The translations under genes and the position numbers were made by a program. Shown piece by piece: positions 7,592-13,900 of a DNA stretch of 22,907 bases. How positions within the stretch are numbered: the stretch's first letter is position 1; the number at the start of each line of letters is the position of its first letter. Source of the stretch: an uncultured Anaerolineaceae bacterium. GTDB lineage: Bacteria; Chloroflexota; Anaerolineae; Promineifilales; Promineifilaceae. Where the stretch lies: the NCBI GenBank assembly GCA_937967805.1, contig CALBTC010000082.1, positions 1 to 22,907 of the forward strand, read 5' to 3'. The notes beneath the pieces were generated by a model, which saw nothing but the letters and a program-made list of their open reading frames with translations, was not told the DNA's origin and did no database searches.

Positions 7592-7837
7592 TTACTTGTT
7601 CATAATGCTTACAAGCCGTTTTTGCAGCGCGTCCCTGGTCGGATTACCCAGCGAGATAATCTTCCCGTCTAACAAATAAGTGGGTACGGCAAAGACGTTT
7701 TCCGGCATCGGTTCCTGCTCCATATCTACCACATTCAGCAAAACGTTGGGAAAGTTGGGCATAATGTCGTCTAAAATGCGCTGCGTTTCGGCACAAGACC
7801 AGCAATCGTCGGCAATATATACGGTGAGCGTGTGCAT
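7592..7837 (-). CDS. Glutaredoxin/thioredoxin-fold small protein (CxxC)
   Basis: 81 residues: beta strand TLTVYIAD, active site C12-W-S-C15, helix, second strand VLLNVVDME, and the cis-Pro motif A-V-P-T-Y followed by L-L-D-G-K. This is a complete minimal thioredoxin fold, similar in length to glutaredoxins and NrdH. It lacks the YCPYC/CVQC signatures, so the specific role is open. The ATG has no obvious ribosome site. The stop codon is 2 nt from a possible upstream start of the Crp gene and 68 nt from the preferred one, so the two form an operon. Confidence 0.82.
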   Translation of the reverse strand: MHTLTVYIADDCWSCAETQRILDDIMPNFPNVLLNVVDMEQEPMPENVFAVPTYLLDGKIISLGNPTRDALQKRLVSIMNK

Positions 7838-7915: not shown

Positions 7916-9187
7916 TCAGACAGGCAGGAAAAAGCCGACGATTGCACCGCCCTCTGGTGCATTTTCGGCCCAGATACGGCCGTGATGCGCCACCACAATT
8001 CCTCGGGCAATGGCCAGCCCCAACCCGGCCCCACCGCCGGAAGCCCGACTGCGCGCCTCTTCACCGCGATAAAATTGCTCAAATACGCGCTTTAAATCTG
8101 CCTCTTCAAAGCCGGGCCCGTCATCCTGTACGGTAACCACAACGCCGTCTTGTTGGCGAACGGCCGTGACCTGCACCGTCCCCCCAGCAGGTGTGTAGCG
8201 CAGCGCATTGCTCACCAGATTGGCCAGCACCCGCCCAATTTTGGGCGCACACATCCATACCAATCCTAAATTGTTCGCCACCTCTCCCCGGAGGGTAATT
8301 CTTTGCCTTTCGGCCATCGCCTGAAACCTCTCCAGTGTATCTGAAACCAGATCACCCAGGCTGTGGTGCGCCTTCTCCATGCTCAGGCCACCGGCGTCCA
8401 GCTGAGCCAGCTCAAACAAGTCATCAATGATGTTGTTCAGAGCAATGATGTCGCTGCGAATCGTGCTGTAATACCGCTTCACCATTGCTGGATCGTCTAC
8501 CACGCCATCGTGCAGCGCCTCAATCATGGCCCGAATGCTGGTGAGCGGCGTGCGTAAATCGTGGGAGGTCCAGGCAATAAGGTCTTTGCGCATCTTTTCC
8601 AGCTCTTCCCGCTCCTGCGCCGCCTGCTGCAGCTGAGCAGCCATCTCGTTAAACGTGTTGCCCACCATGGCGACTTCATCCCGGCCAGAGATGGACACGC
8701 GCGCCTTCAAATTCCCTTCAGCAATTTGCTGGGCGGTGCGGGCCAGTTGGCGCAGACCGTCCGTGACGCTGGCAGCCACAAAAATGCCGAACGTGGTGGC
8801 AATAATGGCCGCAAAAAGCAGCAGCACGCCGCTCAAAATCAAGTCATGCTCATCGTTAAAAAACATACGCTCAGACATGATCCAAACGTTTACCAAAATC
8901 ACAACAGCCGCCCAACCGTAAGTCAGCACCAGGGTCAGGCTAAGTGAGGGGGAGCGCGCCAGGCCGCTGCGATACAAGATATAGCCCATCACTAACGACC
9001 CCAGGGAGGAAATGCTGAGCCAATACATCAGCGTGGTAATTTCCTCCACGGGCGCCTGCATGATCGCCACCATCAGAACAGCAACCAGCGTGAGGGCAGC
9101 CACAATACCCACGGCGAAAATACGCCAGGGGGAGCGGCTGAGAGAATCGGCGTATTTATATTTGGTAGAGCCAAGACTGTTAACCAT
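7916..9187 (-). CDS. Membrane sensor histidine kinase (4 TM, HAMP, HisKA, HATPase)
   Basis: 423 residues. Four hydrophobic segments lie at ~22-43, 52-72, 82-106 and 116-140, with almost no periplasmic domain between them, so sensing is probably intramembrane. A HAMP linker follows (~140-195), then the H-box with phospho-acceptor H209 in WTSHDLRTPLTSI. The N-box is LANLVSNALRYTPAG; G1 is VQDDGPGFEEADLKRVFEQF; G2 is GGGAGLGLAIARGIV. All catalytic motifs look intact. The gene begins 5 nt after the response-regulator stop, so the pair is one operon read leftwards. The stimulus cannot be predicted. Confidence 0.94.
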   Translation of the reverse strand: MVNSLGSTKYKYADSLSRSPWRIFAVGIVAALTLVAVLMVAIMQAPVEEITTLMYWLSISSLGSLVMGYILYRSGLARSPSLSLTLVLTYGWAAVVILVNVWIMSERMFFNDEHDLILSGVLLLFAAIIATTFGIFVAASVTDGLRQLARTAQQIAEGNLKARVSISGRDEVAMVGNTFNEMAAQLQQAAQEREELEKMRKDLIAWTSHDLRTPLTSIRAMIEALHDGVVDDPAMVKRYYSTIRSDIIALNNIIDDLFELAQLDAGGLSMEKAHHSLGDLVSDTLERFQAMAERQRITLRGEVANNLGLVWMCAPKIGRVLANLVSNALRYTPAGGTVQVTAVRQQDGVVVTVQDDGPGFEEADLKRVFEQFYRGEEARSRASGGGAGLGLAIARGIVVAHHGRIWAENAPEGGAIVGFFLPV

Positions 9188-9192
9188 GAGAT

Positions 9193-9915
9193 TTATCCGG
9201 GATCAAATTTGTAACCAACGCCCCACACAGTTAATAAATGAGTAGGATCGCTGGGATCAACTTCTATCTTCTCGCGCAGACGGCGAATATGAACGGTGAC
9301 GGTGCTGGGGTCAACGTATTCAGAGAAGCCCCAGACGTTTTCCAACAGTTGGTCGCGCTTAAACACCTGCCGCGGATGGCTGACCATGAACCAGAGCAGG
9401 TTAAATTCGGTGGCGGTGAGATCAATGGAATTGCCGCGCACGTTGACAATGCGGGTTTTGGGATCGATGGAGAGGTCATTGTATTGTAACGGCCGTTCCC
9501 CCTTCTCAACCCCGCTGCCACCACGCGCCCGTCTTAAAACCGCCTTCACCCGCGACACCAATTCGGCCGGCGAAAACGGCTTGGTGACGTAATCATCTGC
9601 GCCCAACTCCAGGCCATAAATGCGGTCGGTCTCCTGCCGCCGGGCGGTAAGCATGATGACTGGCACATCGGAGCCGGCATCGTCACGCAGGCGGCGCACG
9701 ATTTCCAGGCCATCGACCTCGGGCAGCATCAGGTCCAGCACCACCAGGGCGGGAAGTTGTTCACGAATGGCGTCAAGGGCGGAACGGCCGTCTTGCGCCA
9801 CGCGCACCGTAAACCCTTCCCGTTTCAAATAGAGGGCCACCACCTCCACTACAGAAGCTTCATCATCGACAACTAAAATGTCACCATATTCATGAAATGA
9901 TTGATTTAGGGTCAT
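9193..9915 (-). CDS. OmpR/PhoB-family response regulator
   Basis: 240 residues; AGGAG 8 nt before the ATG. The receiver domain (~12-125) has acidic pocket D-D-E (VVDDEA), phospho-acceptor D61 in VVLDLMLP, T90 and K112 (YVTKPFS). The C-terminal winged helix (~145-238) carries LTATEFNLLWFMVSHPRQVF and PSTVTVHIRRLREKI, the recognition helix of OmpR-type regulators. It is the first gene of a two-gene operon with the histidine kinase. The heptamer direct repeat ~40 nt upstream (9952-9969) is a likely autoregulatory site. Confidence 0.95.
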   Translation of the reverse strand: MTLNQSFHEYGDILVVDDEASVVEVVALYLKREGFTVRVAQDGRSALDAIREQLPALVVLDLMLPEVDGLEIVRRLRDDAGSDVPVIMLTARRQETDRIYGLELGADDYVTKPFSPAELVSRVKAVLRRARGGSGVEKGERPLQYNDLSIDPKTRIVNVRGNSIDLTATEFNLLWFMVSHPRQVFKRDQLLENVWGFSEYVDPSTVTVHIRRLREKIEVDPSDPTHLLTVWGVGYKFDPG

Positions 9916-10182: not shown

Positions 10183-11241
10183 ATGAACAATCATCTCTCC
10201 CGACGAAAGTTTCTGCAGATGGCCTCCGGCACGGCCGTTTTATTTTTGGCCGGTTGTCGTCCCAAAGCGGAACCAACACCCATCAATATGCCGGCGGCGA
10301 CGGCCGTTCCCTCCCCTCCTGCCACCCTGCCGCCACTTAGCCGCGATCTCATCCTCACGCCCAACGATGAATTTTACGTGATGGAAACCAACGGCACGCC
10401 CAGCGTGGACCGGGCCGAATGGCGCCTAACCATCGATGGTCTGGTGGAAAATCCGCTGAGGCTCAGTTTTGATGACATTGAAGCACGGCCGTTTGTCGAA
10501 CAGATGCGCACGCTGGAATGCATTGGCAACGCCGTCGGCGGCAACCAGATCGGCAATGCGGTATGGGGCGGCGTCTTACTGGCCGATTTGTTGGCAGAGG
10601 TGAGGGTAATGGAAACGGCCGTCCGCGCCAAATTTGAAGCTGCCGATAATTACGAAACGTCCGTCTCTTTGGATTGGATCAATCAGCCGGGCACCATGCT
10701 TGCTTACCAGATGAATGGCGAGCCGCTGCCGCCGAAACATGGCTACCCGCTGCGCCTATTCATGCCGGGGCTGTACGGCCAAAAGATGCCCAAATGGATC
10801 ACCCGCATCGAGTTTATCGACCACAACCTTCACCTGGGAACGTGGGAAAAGCAGGGCTGGTCCAACGTGGCAAAGGTCAAAACCAATTCGCAAATCATGA
10901 TGCCCACCCACATCCAAAAAGTGCCGCTGGCCCCGCTGGAAATCTTCGGCGTGGCCTACGCCGGTGACCGTCACATCGCCCAGGTGGAAGTGGGCATCGA
11001 GAACCAGGACGGCGATCTGCGCTGGCAGTTGGTCGAGGAGCTGGTGCGCGGCCCCAGCGACGAGGTGTGGACCCAGTTTTATCTGCCCTGGACGCCGCCC
11101 GCTGCCGGAACCTACACCCTGCTCGTCCGCGCCACCGACGAAACCGGCTTTGTCCAAACCGAGCGCGCTCGCGGCGTTTTGGAAGGTGCTTTTCCTGACG
11201 GGACGGACAAAATTCACAATATCGTCATTGTCGTTGTGTAA
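10183..11241 (+). CDS. Exported molybdopterin-dependent oxidoreductase (sulfite oxidase family)
   Basis: 352 residues. The N-terminus combines a twin-arginine motif (S-R-R-K-F-L-Q-M) with a lipobox (F-L-A-G-C25), so it is probably exported folded with its cofactor and anchored as a lipoprotein. Residues ~55-235 are the oxidoreductase molybdopterin domain, with C113 in RTLECIGN as the expected molybdenum ligand (sulfite oxidases have L-x-C-x-G-N). GYPLRLFMPGLYG and the W-I-T-R-I-E-F segment are also typical. Residues ~240-350 form the Ig-like dimerisation domain. There is no heme domain in the chain; the downstream multiheme cytochrome could accept its electrons. The substrate (sulfite or another oxo-acceptor) is not proven. 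No ribosome site is evident. Confidence 0.88.
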   Translation: MNNHLSRRKFLQMASGTAVLFLAGCRPKAEPTPINMPAATAVPSPPATLPPLSRDLILTPNDEFYVMETNGTPSVDRAEWRLTIDGLVENPLRLSFDDIEARPFVEQMRTLECIGNAVGGNQIGNAVWGGVLLADLLAEVRVMETAVRAKFEAADNYETSVSLDWINQPGTMLAYQMNGEPLPPKHGYPLRLFMPGLYGQKMPKWITRIEFIDHNLHLGTWEKQGWSNVAKVKTNSQIMMPTHIQKVPLAPLEIFGVAYAGDRHIAQVEVGIENQDGDLRWQLVEELVRGPSDEVWTQFYLPWTPPAAGTYTLLVRATDETGFVQTERARGVLEGAFPDGTDKIHNIVIVVV

Positions 11242-11251
11242 TCGAGTAATT

Positions 11252-11320
11252 GTCATTCTGACCGAAGGGAAGAATCCCTTTGAGGATCATCCTGTAAAAG
11301 CCACGCCCACGAAGGATGAC
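11252..11320. repeat. Dispersed-repeat-like element with internal hairpin
   Basis: The element is bounded by GTCAT (11252-11256) and ATGAC (11316-11320). Inside it is a perfect 6-bp hairpin, AAGGGA-AGAA-TCCCTT (11265-11280). The phrase GTCATTCTGA-CGAAG-GAAGAATC resembles a short intergenic repeat I remember from many bacterial draft genomes. It fills most of the gap between the molybdoenzyme and the cytochrome gene. Confidence 0.45.
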
Positions 11321-11351
11321 ATATGCAAACAAGGGAGACAAAGGTCAACAA

Positions 11352-12098
11352 ATGTGGAAACCCGGCAACAAAAAACAATGGCTGCTGACAATTCTGGTTG
11401 CAGGCATTGTGCTGTCTGTCACTTCCATCGTCACCGCCTCGGAATTGGAAGAACGGGACGAATTTTGTACGAGCTGCCACCGGGCACCTGAACTGACTTA
11501 TTTTGAGCGGGCGCACGATGCCACAATGAACGCAAACGCCACCGACCTGGCAAGCTTTCATTACGCTGACAACAATCAATTCCGCTGTGTGGATTGCCAT
11601 CGAGGTGACCAAAGCTTTGTGCAACGGGCCGAGATTTTGTGGTTGGCGGCACAGGATACGGCCGTTCACTTCCTAAGCACCCCCGACCAAACCATTGAAA
11701 AAGGGAACGTGCCCGCGCCCAATCCGCACGCGGGCAGTTGGCAAGGGCCGGAACGGTACAGCCGCACGCCGGGCATTTTGAACGACGGCTGCCTGAGCTG
11801 CCATCAGGACGTCCTCACGCTGGTCGGCTTTGAGAACCATTTCCACAACAAGCTGCCCCAGGCCCAGCTTGCCTATGCCCAAACAGAGCGGTTAAACTTC
11901 CCCGACGGCTGGCCCGGCGAAGCCGGCAGCCCGGCGCTCCTGGTGCCTGAAGAAACGGTACTCACCTGCCTGGACTGCCATCGGGCCCACGTACCCGGCC
12001 TGGAATTTGACTACTTTTTGAACGAAACGGCCGTTATCCTACCCGCCTGTGTGCAATGCCACCTGGAAGCAAACGCCGGGCCGGTGGACTTAAAATAG
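11352..12098 (+). CDS. Five-heme c-type cytochrome, membrane-anchored or exported
   Basis: 248 residues from the ATG at 11352 (AAGG 8 nt upstream). The in-frame ATG at 11316 lies inside the repeat and would add 12 polar residues ahead of the signal. Residues ~7-28 form a hydrophobic signal or anchor (KKQWLLTILVAGIVLSVTSI). Five heme-attachment motifs follow: CTSCH, CVDCH, CLSCH, CLDCH, CVQCH. Extra His residues (ERAHD, SFHYADN, ENHFHNK) could be distal ligands. The start plus first two motifs recall NapC/NirT-type quinol-oxidising cytochromes. The position right after the sulfite-oxidase-like enzyme suggests an electron-transfer partner, analogous to SorA-SorB; this is inference. Confidence 0.87.
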   Translation: MWKPGNKKQWLLTILVAGIVLSVTSIVTASELEERDEFCTSCHRAPELTYFERAHDATMNANATDLASFHYADNNQFRCVDCHRGDQSFVQRAEILWLAAQDTAVHFLSTPDQTIEKGNVPAPNPHAGSWQGPERYSRTPGILNDGCLSCHQDVLTLVGFENHFHNKLPQAQLAYAQTERLNFPDGWPGEAGSPALLVPEETVLTCLDCHRAHVPGLEFDYFLNETAVILPACVQCHLEANAGPVDLK

Positions 12099-12115
12099 AG
12101 ACTGGAGATTGGAGA

Positions 12116-13393
12116 TTGGAGAATTCAATTATTCGACGCCACATTTTGCTGATAATAACTTTGCTAAGCTTGGCTGCTTGCAGGGAGACTTCGCCGGAGG
12201 TAACTCAAATTCGCAACACGGCCGTTCCAACCACCACCAATCCAGTTTCTACACCCACTTTAGCAAATGTTGCAGCAGAGACGGCCGTTCCCGCCATAGA
12301 ATTACCGTCCAGCAGCTCGCCTACACCGACTATGACCGCAACTGCAACCGCCACGTCGCAACCAACCCCAACAGTACCGCCGCCCACGCCGGTAGCCACT
12401 GTCGAGCTGGCAGGTGCCACCGTGCCGCCCGGCTTTAGCCTTATCAAGTTTGCCGATCTTTACCGGCCCACCGGCCTCACCTTTGATGGCGCCGGGCGGC
12501 TGTACGTCACCTCGTTTGACGGCACGGTGCATGTTTTGACCGATACCGACGGCGACGGTCGTGCCGACAGCGACACGGTATTCGCCACCGGCTTCAGCAC
12601 CGCCCTGGGTATCACCCTGCGTCCCGGCACAAACGATGTGTACGTCTCCAGCAACGGCCGTATCACCCTGCTGCGCGACGAAAACGGGGACGATCGGGCC
12701 GACGTCCGCGAGATTTTTGTGAGCGGTCTGCCTACCGGGCTGCACCAAAACGACAATCTCAAATTTGGCACCGATGGCTGGCTCTACATGGGCGTCGGCT
12801 CTACCTGCGACGCCTGCGTGGAGGCAGACGAGCGCAGCGGCACCATCATGCGCTTCAACGTGGACACGGGCGAAAGCGAAATCATCGCCAGCGGCCTGCG
12901 CAACCCGTACGATCTCGCCTTCCACCCGACCACCGGCGACCTGTTCGCCACCGACAACGGCCGGGACGATTTAGGCTTAGGCAGTCCGTTTGAAGAGCTT
13001 AACCACATTGTCATGGGCGGCGACTACGGCTGGCCGGACTGCTGGAATAAGGGCGAAGGCAGCGATTGTGCCGGGACGGAAACGGCCGTTGCCTTCTTTG
13101 AACCCCACTCCTCGGCCAACGGTCTCGACTTTTACACCGGCAGCCAGTTCCCCGCCGAGTATCAAAACGACGCTTTCGTCGCCATCTTCGGCACCTTCCT
13201 CACCGACGGTGTAGCCACCGGCATCGCCCGCGTGCAGCTCACCCCAAACGGCGACAGCTACCAAAGCACCGTCAGCTGGTTTGCCCAATGGCCAGACGGC
13301 CGTCCCCTGCCGCTCATCATGGGGCCGGATGGGGCACTTTATGTGGGGGATTATATTAATAGTGTGATTTATCGGATTAGTTATGGGTCGTGA
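12116..13393 (+). CDS. PQQ-dependent sugar-dehydrogenase-like beta-propeller lipoprotein
   Basis: 425 residues from a TTG at 12116 with GGAG 8 nt upstream; this start puts a lipoprotein signal (IIRRHILLIITLLSLAAC, Cys22) at the N-terminus. The longer frame from 12056 overlaps the cytochrome gene and buries the signal. Residues 23-105 are a Thr/Pro/Ala-rich stalk. Residues ~110-425 are a six-bladed glucose/sorbosone-dehydrogenase propeller: RPTGLTFDGAGRLYV, GLHQNDNLKFGTDGWLYMGVG with the likely catalytic His, RNPYDLAFHPTTGDLFATDNG, and MGGDYGWPDC. Two calcium-loop-like strings, DTDGDGRADSD and DENGDDRADV, are present. The ribosome site and start sit in a tandem GAGATTG repeat. The substrate is unknown. 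Confidence 0.82.
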   Translation: MENSIIRRHILLIITLLSLAACRETSPEVTQIRNTAVPTTTNPVSTPTLANVAAETAVPAIELPSSSSPTPTMTATATATSQPTPTVPPPTPVATVELAGATVPPGFSLIKFADLYRPTGLTFDGAGRLYVTSFDGTVHVLTDTDGDGRADSDTVFATGFSTALGITLRPGTNDVYVSSNGRITLLRDENGDDRADVREIFVSGLPTGLHQNDNLKFGTDGWLYMGVGSTCDACVEADERSGTIMRFNVDTGESEIIASGLRNPYDLAFHPTTGDLFATDNGRDDLGLGSPFEELNHIVMGGDYGWPDCWNKGEGSDCAGTETAVAFFEPHSSANGLDFYTGSQFPAEYQNDAFVAIFGTFLTDGVATGIARVQLTPNGDSYQSTVSWFAQWPDGRPLPLIMGPDGALYVGDYINSVIYRISYGS

Positions 13394-13423: not shown

Positions 13424-13471
13424 AGGTGTGAATACTTTTTATTTTTACATTGATCAGAAAAGGAGAGTAAT

Positions 13472-13900
13472 ATGCGGAAAATAATTTGCATAATCTTTTC
13501 AGTTTTGCTGCTTTTGCTGGTGGTGGGATGTGGCAGTGGTGAAGCGGAAACGGCCGTACCTAGCCAACCAACAGACACCAACACCGTCGAAACCGACACC
13601 GATACCAAAGCGGTGGCCGCCAAACCACAACTCATCGAGTTTTACGCCGATTGGTGACCAACCTGCCAACGGATGCAGCCCATCGTGAATGGGTTAGAAA
13701 GCGAGTATGGCAGTGAAATTGAGTTTGTCAAAATCAACATCGACGATCCCGATTCGGCCGCGGCAAAGCAGGAGTATGGCTTCCGCTACCAGCCGTTTTT
13801 TGTCCTGGTCAACGCCGACGGCGAGGTGCTGGAAGAATGGCCCGGCTACACCGATGCCCAACTTTTCGAGGACGCCTTCGCCACCGTTTTGGAAAACTAA
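13472..13900 (+). CDS. Thioredoxin-fold lipoprotein, candidate selenoprotein (in-frame TGA at active site)
   Basis: Read through the TGA at 13655-13657, this is one 142-residue frame with AGGAG before the ATG. It has a lipoprotein signal (CIIFSVLLLLLVVGC, Cys20), a Thr/Asp-rich linker to ~50, then a thioredoxin domain: LIEFYADW-[TGA62]-P-T-C65-Q-R-M, central strand IEFVKINIDD, YGFRYQPFFVLV (cis-Pro), and G-Y-T-D-A-Q-L-F-E-D-A-F. The TGA occupies exactly the first Cys of the W-C-x-x-C motif, giving U-P-T-C. The downstream half is uneroded, and a hairpin suited to a bacterial SECIS follows. Other genes here use TGA as a true stop (1719, 3698, 13391), so the code is not reassigned. Alternatives are a single nonsense mutation or a sequencing error. 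The protein probably reduces or rearranges disulfides outside the membrane beside the redox enzymes upstream. Confidence 0.7.
13677..13695 (+). promoter_or_regulatory. Candidate bacterial SECIS hairpin
   Basis: AGCCCAT (13677-13683), loop CGTGA (13684-13688), ATGGGTT (13689-13695): a 7-bp stem with one G-U pair. The loop begins 27 nt after the TGA and has G at its second position followed by U. Bacterial SECIS elements are described as a stem-loop just downstream of UGA with a GU in a small apical loop. It is entirely within the coding frame, as expected. It could be a chance hairpin. Confidence 0.5.

Follow-up and report, generated by a model that had tools for sequence, protein, structure and literature searches.

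A very probable selenocysteine thioredoxin lipoprotein gene in an uncultured Anaerolineaceae bacterium and its relatives in the Anaerolineae

We analysed a stretch of 22,907 nucleotides from an uncultured Anaerolineaceae bacterium (contig CALBTC010000082.1; hereafter the window), in which one thioredoxin gene contains an in-frame TGA codon. Sequence comparison suggests that this is very probably a selenoprotein gene. We place high confidence in the explanation as a whole: the gene would be intact, its TGA would be decoded as selenocysteine (Sec, U) through SelB and a selenocysteine insertion sequence (SECIS), and the product would be an exported, lipid-anchored thioredoxin with a UPTC active site.

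A TGA codon at the thioredoxin active site

The frame reads MRKIICIIFSVLLLLLVVGC...LIEFYADW-TGA-PTC...VLEN-TAA, that is, 61 residues, the TGA and 80 further residues (Table 1). As an earlier note on this DNA had proposed, the TGA occupies the place of the first Cys in the thioredoxin motif (FYADW-U-PTC), and thioredoxin sequence continues in frame behind it. Read through, the frame matches Pfam Thioredoxin (PF00085) with 53.7 bits and an E-value of 2.2e-14 (cut-off 23.5), and a sequence search with the product matches solved thioredoxins. More specific NCBIfam models are not reached: the product scores 54.5 bits against the thioredoxin equivalog TIGR01068 (cut-off 96.8), and among the CcmG/ResA/TlpA models it scores 26.9 of 170 bits for ResA, 28.8 of 123.15 for DsbE and 22.7 of 230 for TlpA. 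At the N-terminus, a regular expression and a hydropathy scan, not a dedicated signal-peptide predictor, find the lipobox MRKIICIIFSVLLLLLVVG-C, with Cys20 (13529-13531) as the predicted lipidated residue. Judged from these features, the product is most likely a thiol-disulfide reductase that is tethered to the membrane on its outer side.

Table 1. Features of the window, with the evidence for each
Feature	Position	Strand	Evidence
Putative selenocysteine thioredoxin lipoprotein gene, 142 residues, TAA stop	13472..13900	+	Read-through frame, Pfam, homologues, dN/dS
TGA codon, putative selenocysteine 62, first position of UxxC active site (UPTC)	13655..13657	+	Comparison of 152 genes
Codon TGC of Cys65, the probable resolving Cys	13664..13666	+	Role by analogy with thioredoxin chemistry
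Putative SECIS hairpin, stem 13677-13683 with 13689-13695, loop CGUGA 13684-13688	13677..13695	+	Pairing, covariation
Ribosome-binding-site-like AAGGAGA, ATG 5 nt downstream	13460..13466	+	Sequence inspection
Predicted lipoprotein signal peptide, lipobox VVG-C at its end	13472..13531	+	Regular expression and hydropathy scan
GSDH/DUF7133 sugar-dehydrogenase-like protein, directly upstream	12056..13393	+	Pfam; lipobox LAAC by eye
Multiheme c-type cytochrome, Cytochrome_C7	11316..12098	+	Pfam
Oxidored_molyb enzyme, sulfite-oxidase family, below NCBIfam cut-offs	10183..11241	+	Pfam; RRKFLQ resembling a twin-arginine translocation motif and LAGC lipobox by eye
OmpR-type response regulator	9193..9915	-	Homologues near the Sec thioredoxin in L001, L002, L012, L015
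HAMP histidine kinase, adjoins the response regulator	7916..9187	-	List of open reading frames

A scan of one genome per species yielded two close loci, L001 (Anaerolineaceae bacterium NAT123) and L002 (uncultured Anaerolineae bacterium). These are independent assemblies, and both carry TGA at the window's codon. Downstream of the TGA, the ratio of nonsynonymous to synonymous substitution rates (dN/dS) is 0.036, 0.09 and 0.067 in the three comparisons of the window, L001 and L002. The low dN/dS behind a TGA shared with both relatives excludes decay.

We then searched 396 genomes of the class to which the genome of L002 belongs, reading through all stops, and found matches in 253 at E 1e-8. The gene set compared here has 152 members: the window, L001, L002, 29 loci (L012-L040) and 120 places among the matches listed; L011 duplicates L002 and was dropped. 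At the Sec site 119 genes have TGA, 33 have a Cys codon and none has TAA or TAG, although the script that read the genes took TGA as Cys and penalized TAA and TAG as mismatching stops, a mild bias. Random stops or frameshifts in relatives, which would have spoken for decay, do not appear at this codon. The ratio of 119 to 33 is not a population frequency because the genes were selected for their resemblance to a query whose Sec was read as Cys. Lipoboxes are found in 91 of the TGA genes and 21 of the Cys genes, another hydrophobic segment in 21 and seven, and neither feature in seven and five.

Thirteen of the 119 TGA genes (13 of all 152) have a TGA at the second Cys codon too, giving a UxxU site (L092:361-372, L113, L151 and ten others). 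Each has one SECIS-like hairpin with at least five of seven pairs; 11 have a lipobox and the other two a hydrophobic segment. We considered these genes as products of decay and rejected this as unlikely, since hairpin and export feature are retained in all 13. A quick tree on 96 columns contains 15 changes between Sec and Cys, in which gain and loss are not distinguishable; its starred branches force at least six changes for CxxC and at least three for UxxU. The window groups with L001 and L002, and then within a starred set of seven UxxC genes.

Protein databases hold these genes partly in pieces, as the earlier note had anticipated. Our first protein search returned one piece (95% identical) whose first residue is Met68, behind the stop, and a second, from a more distant relative, that ends exactly at ...FYADW. 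A search with the C-terminal half, under a length rule by which full-length proteins could not be returned, gave 24 C-terminal pieces with identities down to 60%, all but one beginning at Met68. Standard gene finding tends to cut such genes in two. A profile search found 525 proteins at E 1e-15, full-length Cys homologues in number among them. In the 120 of these that were listed, the motif is CxxC in 67, WxxC in five and WxxW in two; the pattern used left 46 unclassified.

The hairpin behind the TGA and the selenocysteine machinery

The hairpin AGCCCAU-CGUGA-AUGGGUU has seven base pairs, and its stem and loop begin 20 and 27 nt after the TGA, exactly as first described. The loop has 5 nt with G at its second position, and 26 nt lie between UGA and loop. 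The published model of the bacterial SECIS (bSECIS) asks for a loop of 3-9 nt, a stem of 4-16 bp, G in the first two loop positions, 16-37 nt from UGA to loop and an energy of at most -7.5 kcal/mol (PMC13188914; this and most other papers are cited from excerpts). The earlier note's statement that the geometry is that of a bacterial SECIS stands for stem, loop and spacing; the energy is borderline in the window. The hairpin of the window is not significant alone and is compelling only through comparison.

This comparison separates TGA genes from Cys genes. At the window's register at least six of the seven pairs form in 112 of 119 TGA genes, against six of 33 Cys genes. G occupies loop position 2 in every TGA gene and in 19 of the Cys genes, and a 23-nt segment passes -7.5 kcal/mol in 98 TGA genes and four Cys genes. 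For the following statistics, rows within 12 of 60 nt of a kept row were dropped, which reduced 119 TGA genes to 62. Alignment A2 holds 59 of these; it lacks L031, L117 and L174, of which two or more have a shifted hairpin, and because they are left out A2 favours a fixed register. In A2, 92.3% of cells are paired (79.8% in shuffles), and 60 cells have both sides altered, compared with 16.4 in shuffles. All slid registers are far worse than the window's, and RNAalifold recovers the hairpin unguided. When the 62 genes were recoded synonymously 2000 times, the recodings reached 4.92 pairs at most; the genes themselves have 6.29.

The machinery for Sec was found in the genomes of the two nearest relatives. 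Both have a tRNA-Sec (67 and 72 bits, cut-off 47), SelB (345 and 337 bits, cut-off 242), SelA (579 and 578 bits, cut-off 268) and SelD (377 and 375 bits, with one TGA each). In both SelD genes (L049, L050) the TGA lies in SCAG-U-ASK and is followed by a 7-bp hairpin. The window itself gives no match in an Rfam scan at gathering cut-offs, and ARAGORN finds no tRNA in it. Of the 396 genomes in the class sample, 318 have a SelA match at E 1e-60, and in 315 the match exceeds the cut-off. SelA accompanies the TGA gene in 102 of the 106 examined genomes that have one, compared with nine of 20 genomes with Cys genes only (seven of 20 without two matches below the cut-off; Fisher test, P 8e-8, kinship ignored). 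In several genomes (G185, G198, G208 and others) SelA gives two matches, the better of them with an E-value of about 1e-95, in place of a single match near 1e-170; selA may be split or interrupted there.

Several of our results count against decoding as Sec. The evidence for the machinery comes from the two nearest genomes; in the window's own it is presumed. The tRNA-Sec model also exceeds its cut-off in five of 14 control genomes, so it is not specific alone, and the TCA anticodon, that of tRNA-Sec(UCA), was called in both nearest genomes by ARAGORN alone. SelA occurs in the Cys-only genomes counted above, and four TGA genomes (G250, G314, G317, G356) lack a SelA match, a gap that is likely due to genome incompleteness. 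In the window, 48 nt fold with -9.0 kcal/mol, no better than dinucleotide shuffles (z 0.13); the 19-nt hairpin alone reaches -7.0, just short of the threshold; and synonymous recoding yields all seven pairs in 6.65% of trials. Finally, the six Cys genes with at least six pairs, and the mean of all Cys genes (3.64 pairs against 3.21 when recoded, P 0.0085), show pairing without Sec.

This above-chance pairing may be leftover SECIS, a view based mainly on one gene. The Cys gene L017:1477-1935 (minus strand) resembles the Sec gene L018 and still has the stem and a CGTGA loop, possibly as a relic of a change from Sec to Cys.

Function, gene neighbourhood and alternative readings

If the gene is decoded as we propose, SelB would bind the hairpin that lies 20-38 nt behind the TGA and deliver Sec-tRNA(UCA), and UGA would be read as Sec62. 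The product would be exported, lipidated on Cys20 and anchored outside the cytoplasmic membrane, as its signal sequence suggests. There it would act as a classical small thioredoxin with a UPTC active site. From the fold and established thioredoxin chemistry, we expect the Sec selenolate to attack a substrate disulfide and Cys65 to resolve the mixed selenenylsulfide. On the same grounds, a CcdA/DsbD-type protein would re-reduce the oxidised form across the membrane. Each nearest genome has at least one such protein. A point against this last step is that the CcdA-like gene examined in each of them adjoins its own TlpA-like CGPC protein, which leaves a link by availability only.

Pfam recovers all the neighbours named by the earlier note: the molybdoenzyme (a molybdopterin oxidoreductase domain), the multiheme cytochrome (Cytochrome_C7) and the sugar-dehydrogenase-like protein (GSDH/DUF7133). 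The mechanical ORF (open reading frame) start of the GSDH gene at 12056 overlaps the preceding gene. The order kinase-regulator, molybdoenzyme, multiheme cytochrome, GSDH-like protein and Sec thioredoxin is common to the window, L001 and L002, the latter two as taken from their ORF lists. We examined flanks in 16 relatives, 6 kb in L001 and L002 and about 1.5 kb or less in the other 14, and considered ORFs of at least 100 aa, some of them with a Pfam scan. The full context of molybdoenzyme, cytochrome and GSDH occurs only in L001 and L002 among these relatives. The GSDH gene adjoins the thioredoxin in these two and in L013, whose copy is 58% identical to the window's and whose stretch ends at this gene, with no view further upstream. 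In L012 and L015 a response regulator, 76-78% identical, stands directly beside the thioredoxin. GSDH and the two-component system are thus each found with the thioredoxin in more relatives than the full cluster is. Neither kind of gene was seen among the identified ORFs of the other 11 relatives. The redox context that the earlier note called unusual is present in the window, L001 and L002. By neighbourhood, the GSDH-like protein is the best-linked candidate substrate and the multiheme cytochrome less so. The window also encodes a small CWSC protein (7592-7837, minus strand) with a weak Thioredoxin_3 match, adjacent to a Crp-family regulator and not far from the histidine kinase.

The neighbourhood invites another role for the same Sec protein. 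In the window, as in L001 and L002, the multiheme cytochrome gene is the second one upstream, and the protein could serve cytochrome c maturation as a stand-in for CcmG/ResA. We regard this as unlikely. Both nearest genomes have an AhpC-TSA-type CGPC protein beside DsbD_TM and Cytochrom_C_asm proteins, which would fill that role, and in L012 and L015 the gene directly follows the response regulator with no cytochrome between.

UGA could instead be decoded as Trp or Gly, by a near-cognate tRNA or an altered code. Seven of the 120 listed proteins have Trp at the Sec site (among them P0026 with ADWWPTC, P0041 and P0047) and P0029 has Gly, observations that weigh against Sec. All of these are protein entries, in which gene callers perhaps translated TGA under other codes; the 152 genes read as DNA have only TGA or a Cys codon there. 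Moreover, TGA is the stop codon of seven of 18 other window ORFs tallied, the SECIS covaries and SelA tracks the TGA genes. We consider such decoding very improbable.

There is an equally slim chance that the gene makes two products, a lipopeptide of 61 residues and a protein of 75 residues that restarts at Met68. The 75-residue piece exists as a database protein, and Met68 is nearly invariant in closer relatives. It is, however, substituted in many members of the class (such as L027, L035 and L064), and the Cys homologues are continuous. In the domain model the TGA follows the first strand (53-58) and precedes all other strands and helices, so neither piece is a whole fold.

A pseudogene or sequencing error, in which TGC or TGT became TGA and the downstream half decays or is misread, would be suggested by the interrupted frame of the window alone, but it is scarcely credible, and refuted for the family by comparison, given the same TGA in independent assemblies and in 119 of 152 homologues, no TAA or TAG, and a dN/dS of 0.036-0.09 after the TGA.

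Selenocysteine decoding of this family may be part of something larger, and we see about even chances for the following wider reading. The Anaerolineae would have a class-wide selenium thiol system outside the cell membrane, built around a family of thioredoxins with a lipid anchor, many of them with Sec, which has repeatedly interchanged with Cys. Several lineages would have exchanged both active-site Cys for Sec (UxxU), apparently with one hairpin for two UGAs, implying a diselenide site; in the window's lineage the protein would serve a group of oxidoreductase genes that has a two-component system at its flank. If this is true, a poorly cultured class has many exported selenoproteins. Databases would hold them partly truncated and perhaps mistranslated, and the extracellular-side redox chemistry of the class would have been missed for this reason. 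CxxC, UxxC and UxxU on one scaffold would form a natural series in which to study the reasons for retaining Sec outside the cell, the use of a single SECIS for two UGAs and the conversion between Sec and Cys. Annotation could be repaired more easily with a curated model of the family.

Comparison with known selenoproteins

A Sec thioredoxin (PF00085, UxxC) is tabulated in PMC13188914 and PMC9312934, and according to these excerpts it shares the Pfam domain, the Sec position and a bacterial SECIS in the coding region with the window gene. The window product differs in its lipoprotein signal, its UPTC site and its score below the NCBIfam thioredoxin cut-off (54.5 against 96.8 bits). A further difference is a Gln before the Pro that corresponds to the thioredoxin cis-Pro.

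The Rcas_1661 family thioredoxin-like (seleno)lipoprotein of NCBIfam, NF041057, which corresponds to the DsbG-like protein in the excerpt of PMC13188914, is a thioredoxin-like lipoprotein with Sec or Cys, like the window gene. Its model, however, has 247 positions and a cut-off of 190 bits, and the window gives no match at E 1e-3. Of 25 family members compared with it, L021 alone matches, weakly (23.7 bits) and over the N-terminal part. Both nearest genomes carry NF041057 members over the cut-off with one TGA each (L180 in G002, L181 in G001), besides other TGA-containing matches that are weaker; these genomes may therefore have several exported selenoproteins side by side. A thioredoxin-like selenolipoprotein is thus already catalogued, and the lipoprotein form, which looked new to the earlier note, is not new as such.

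Other likenesses are more distant. Trx-like 1 and Trx-like 3 from the Global Ocean Sampling survey of marine metagenomes (PMC2398784) share UxxC with the window gene; Trx-like 3 is a distant cd02950 match. A double-Sec site is reported for Prx-like 2 (UxxU; PMC2398784) and for Prx-like proteins with UxxC or UxxU (PMC13188914). Those proteins are peroxiredoxin-like in the excerpts, whereas the UxxU genes described here have a thioredoxin domain and, in 11 of 13 cases, a lipobox. The cited portions of PMC13188914, PMC9312934, PMC2398784 and PMC1794560 name a number of Trx-like families and report UxxU for Prx-like as well as other families. As for the phylum, excerpts report three selenoproteins in Chloroflexi (PMC1794560) and Sec formate dehydrogenases in Chloroflexi (PMC4959059, PMC5736913); the main texts of PMC13188914, PMC9312934 and PMC2398784 nowhere contain the string 'Chloroflex'. 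A literature search by titles and the starts of abstracts for selenoproteins together with Anaerolineae or Chloroflexota, with most subscription papers outside its scope, returned no description of the present family.

Since Sec thioredoxins and NF041057 selenolipoproteins are both catalogued, the window gene is not new in kind. Within the literature searched, it is the family, its extent, its UxxU versions and its gene neighbourhood that look undescribed.
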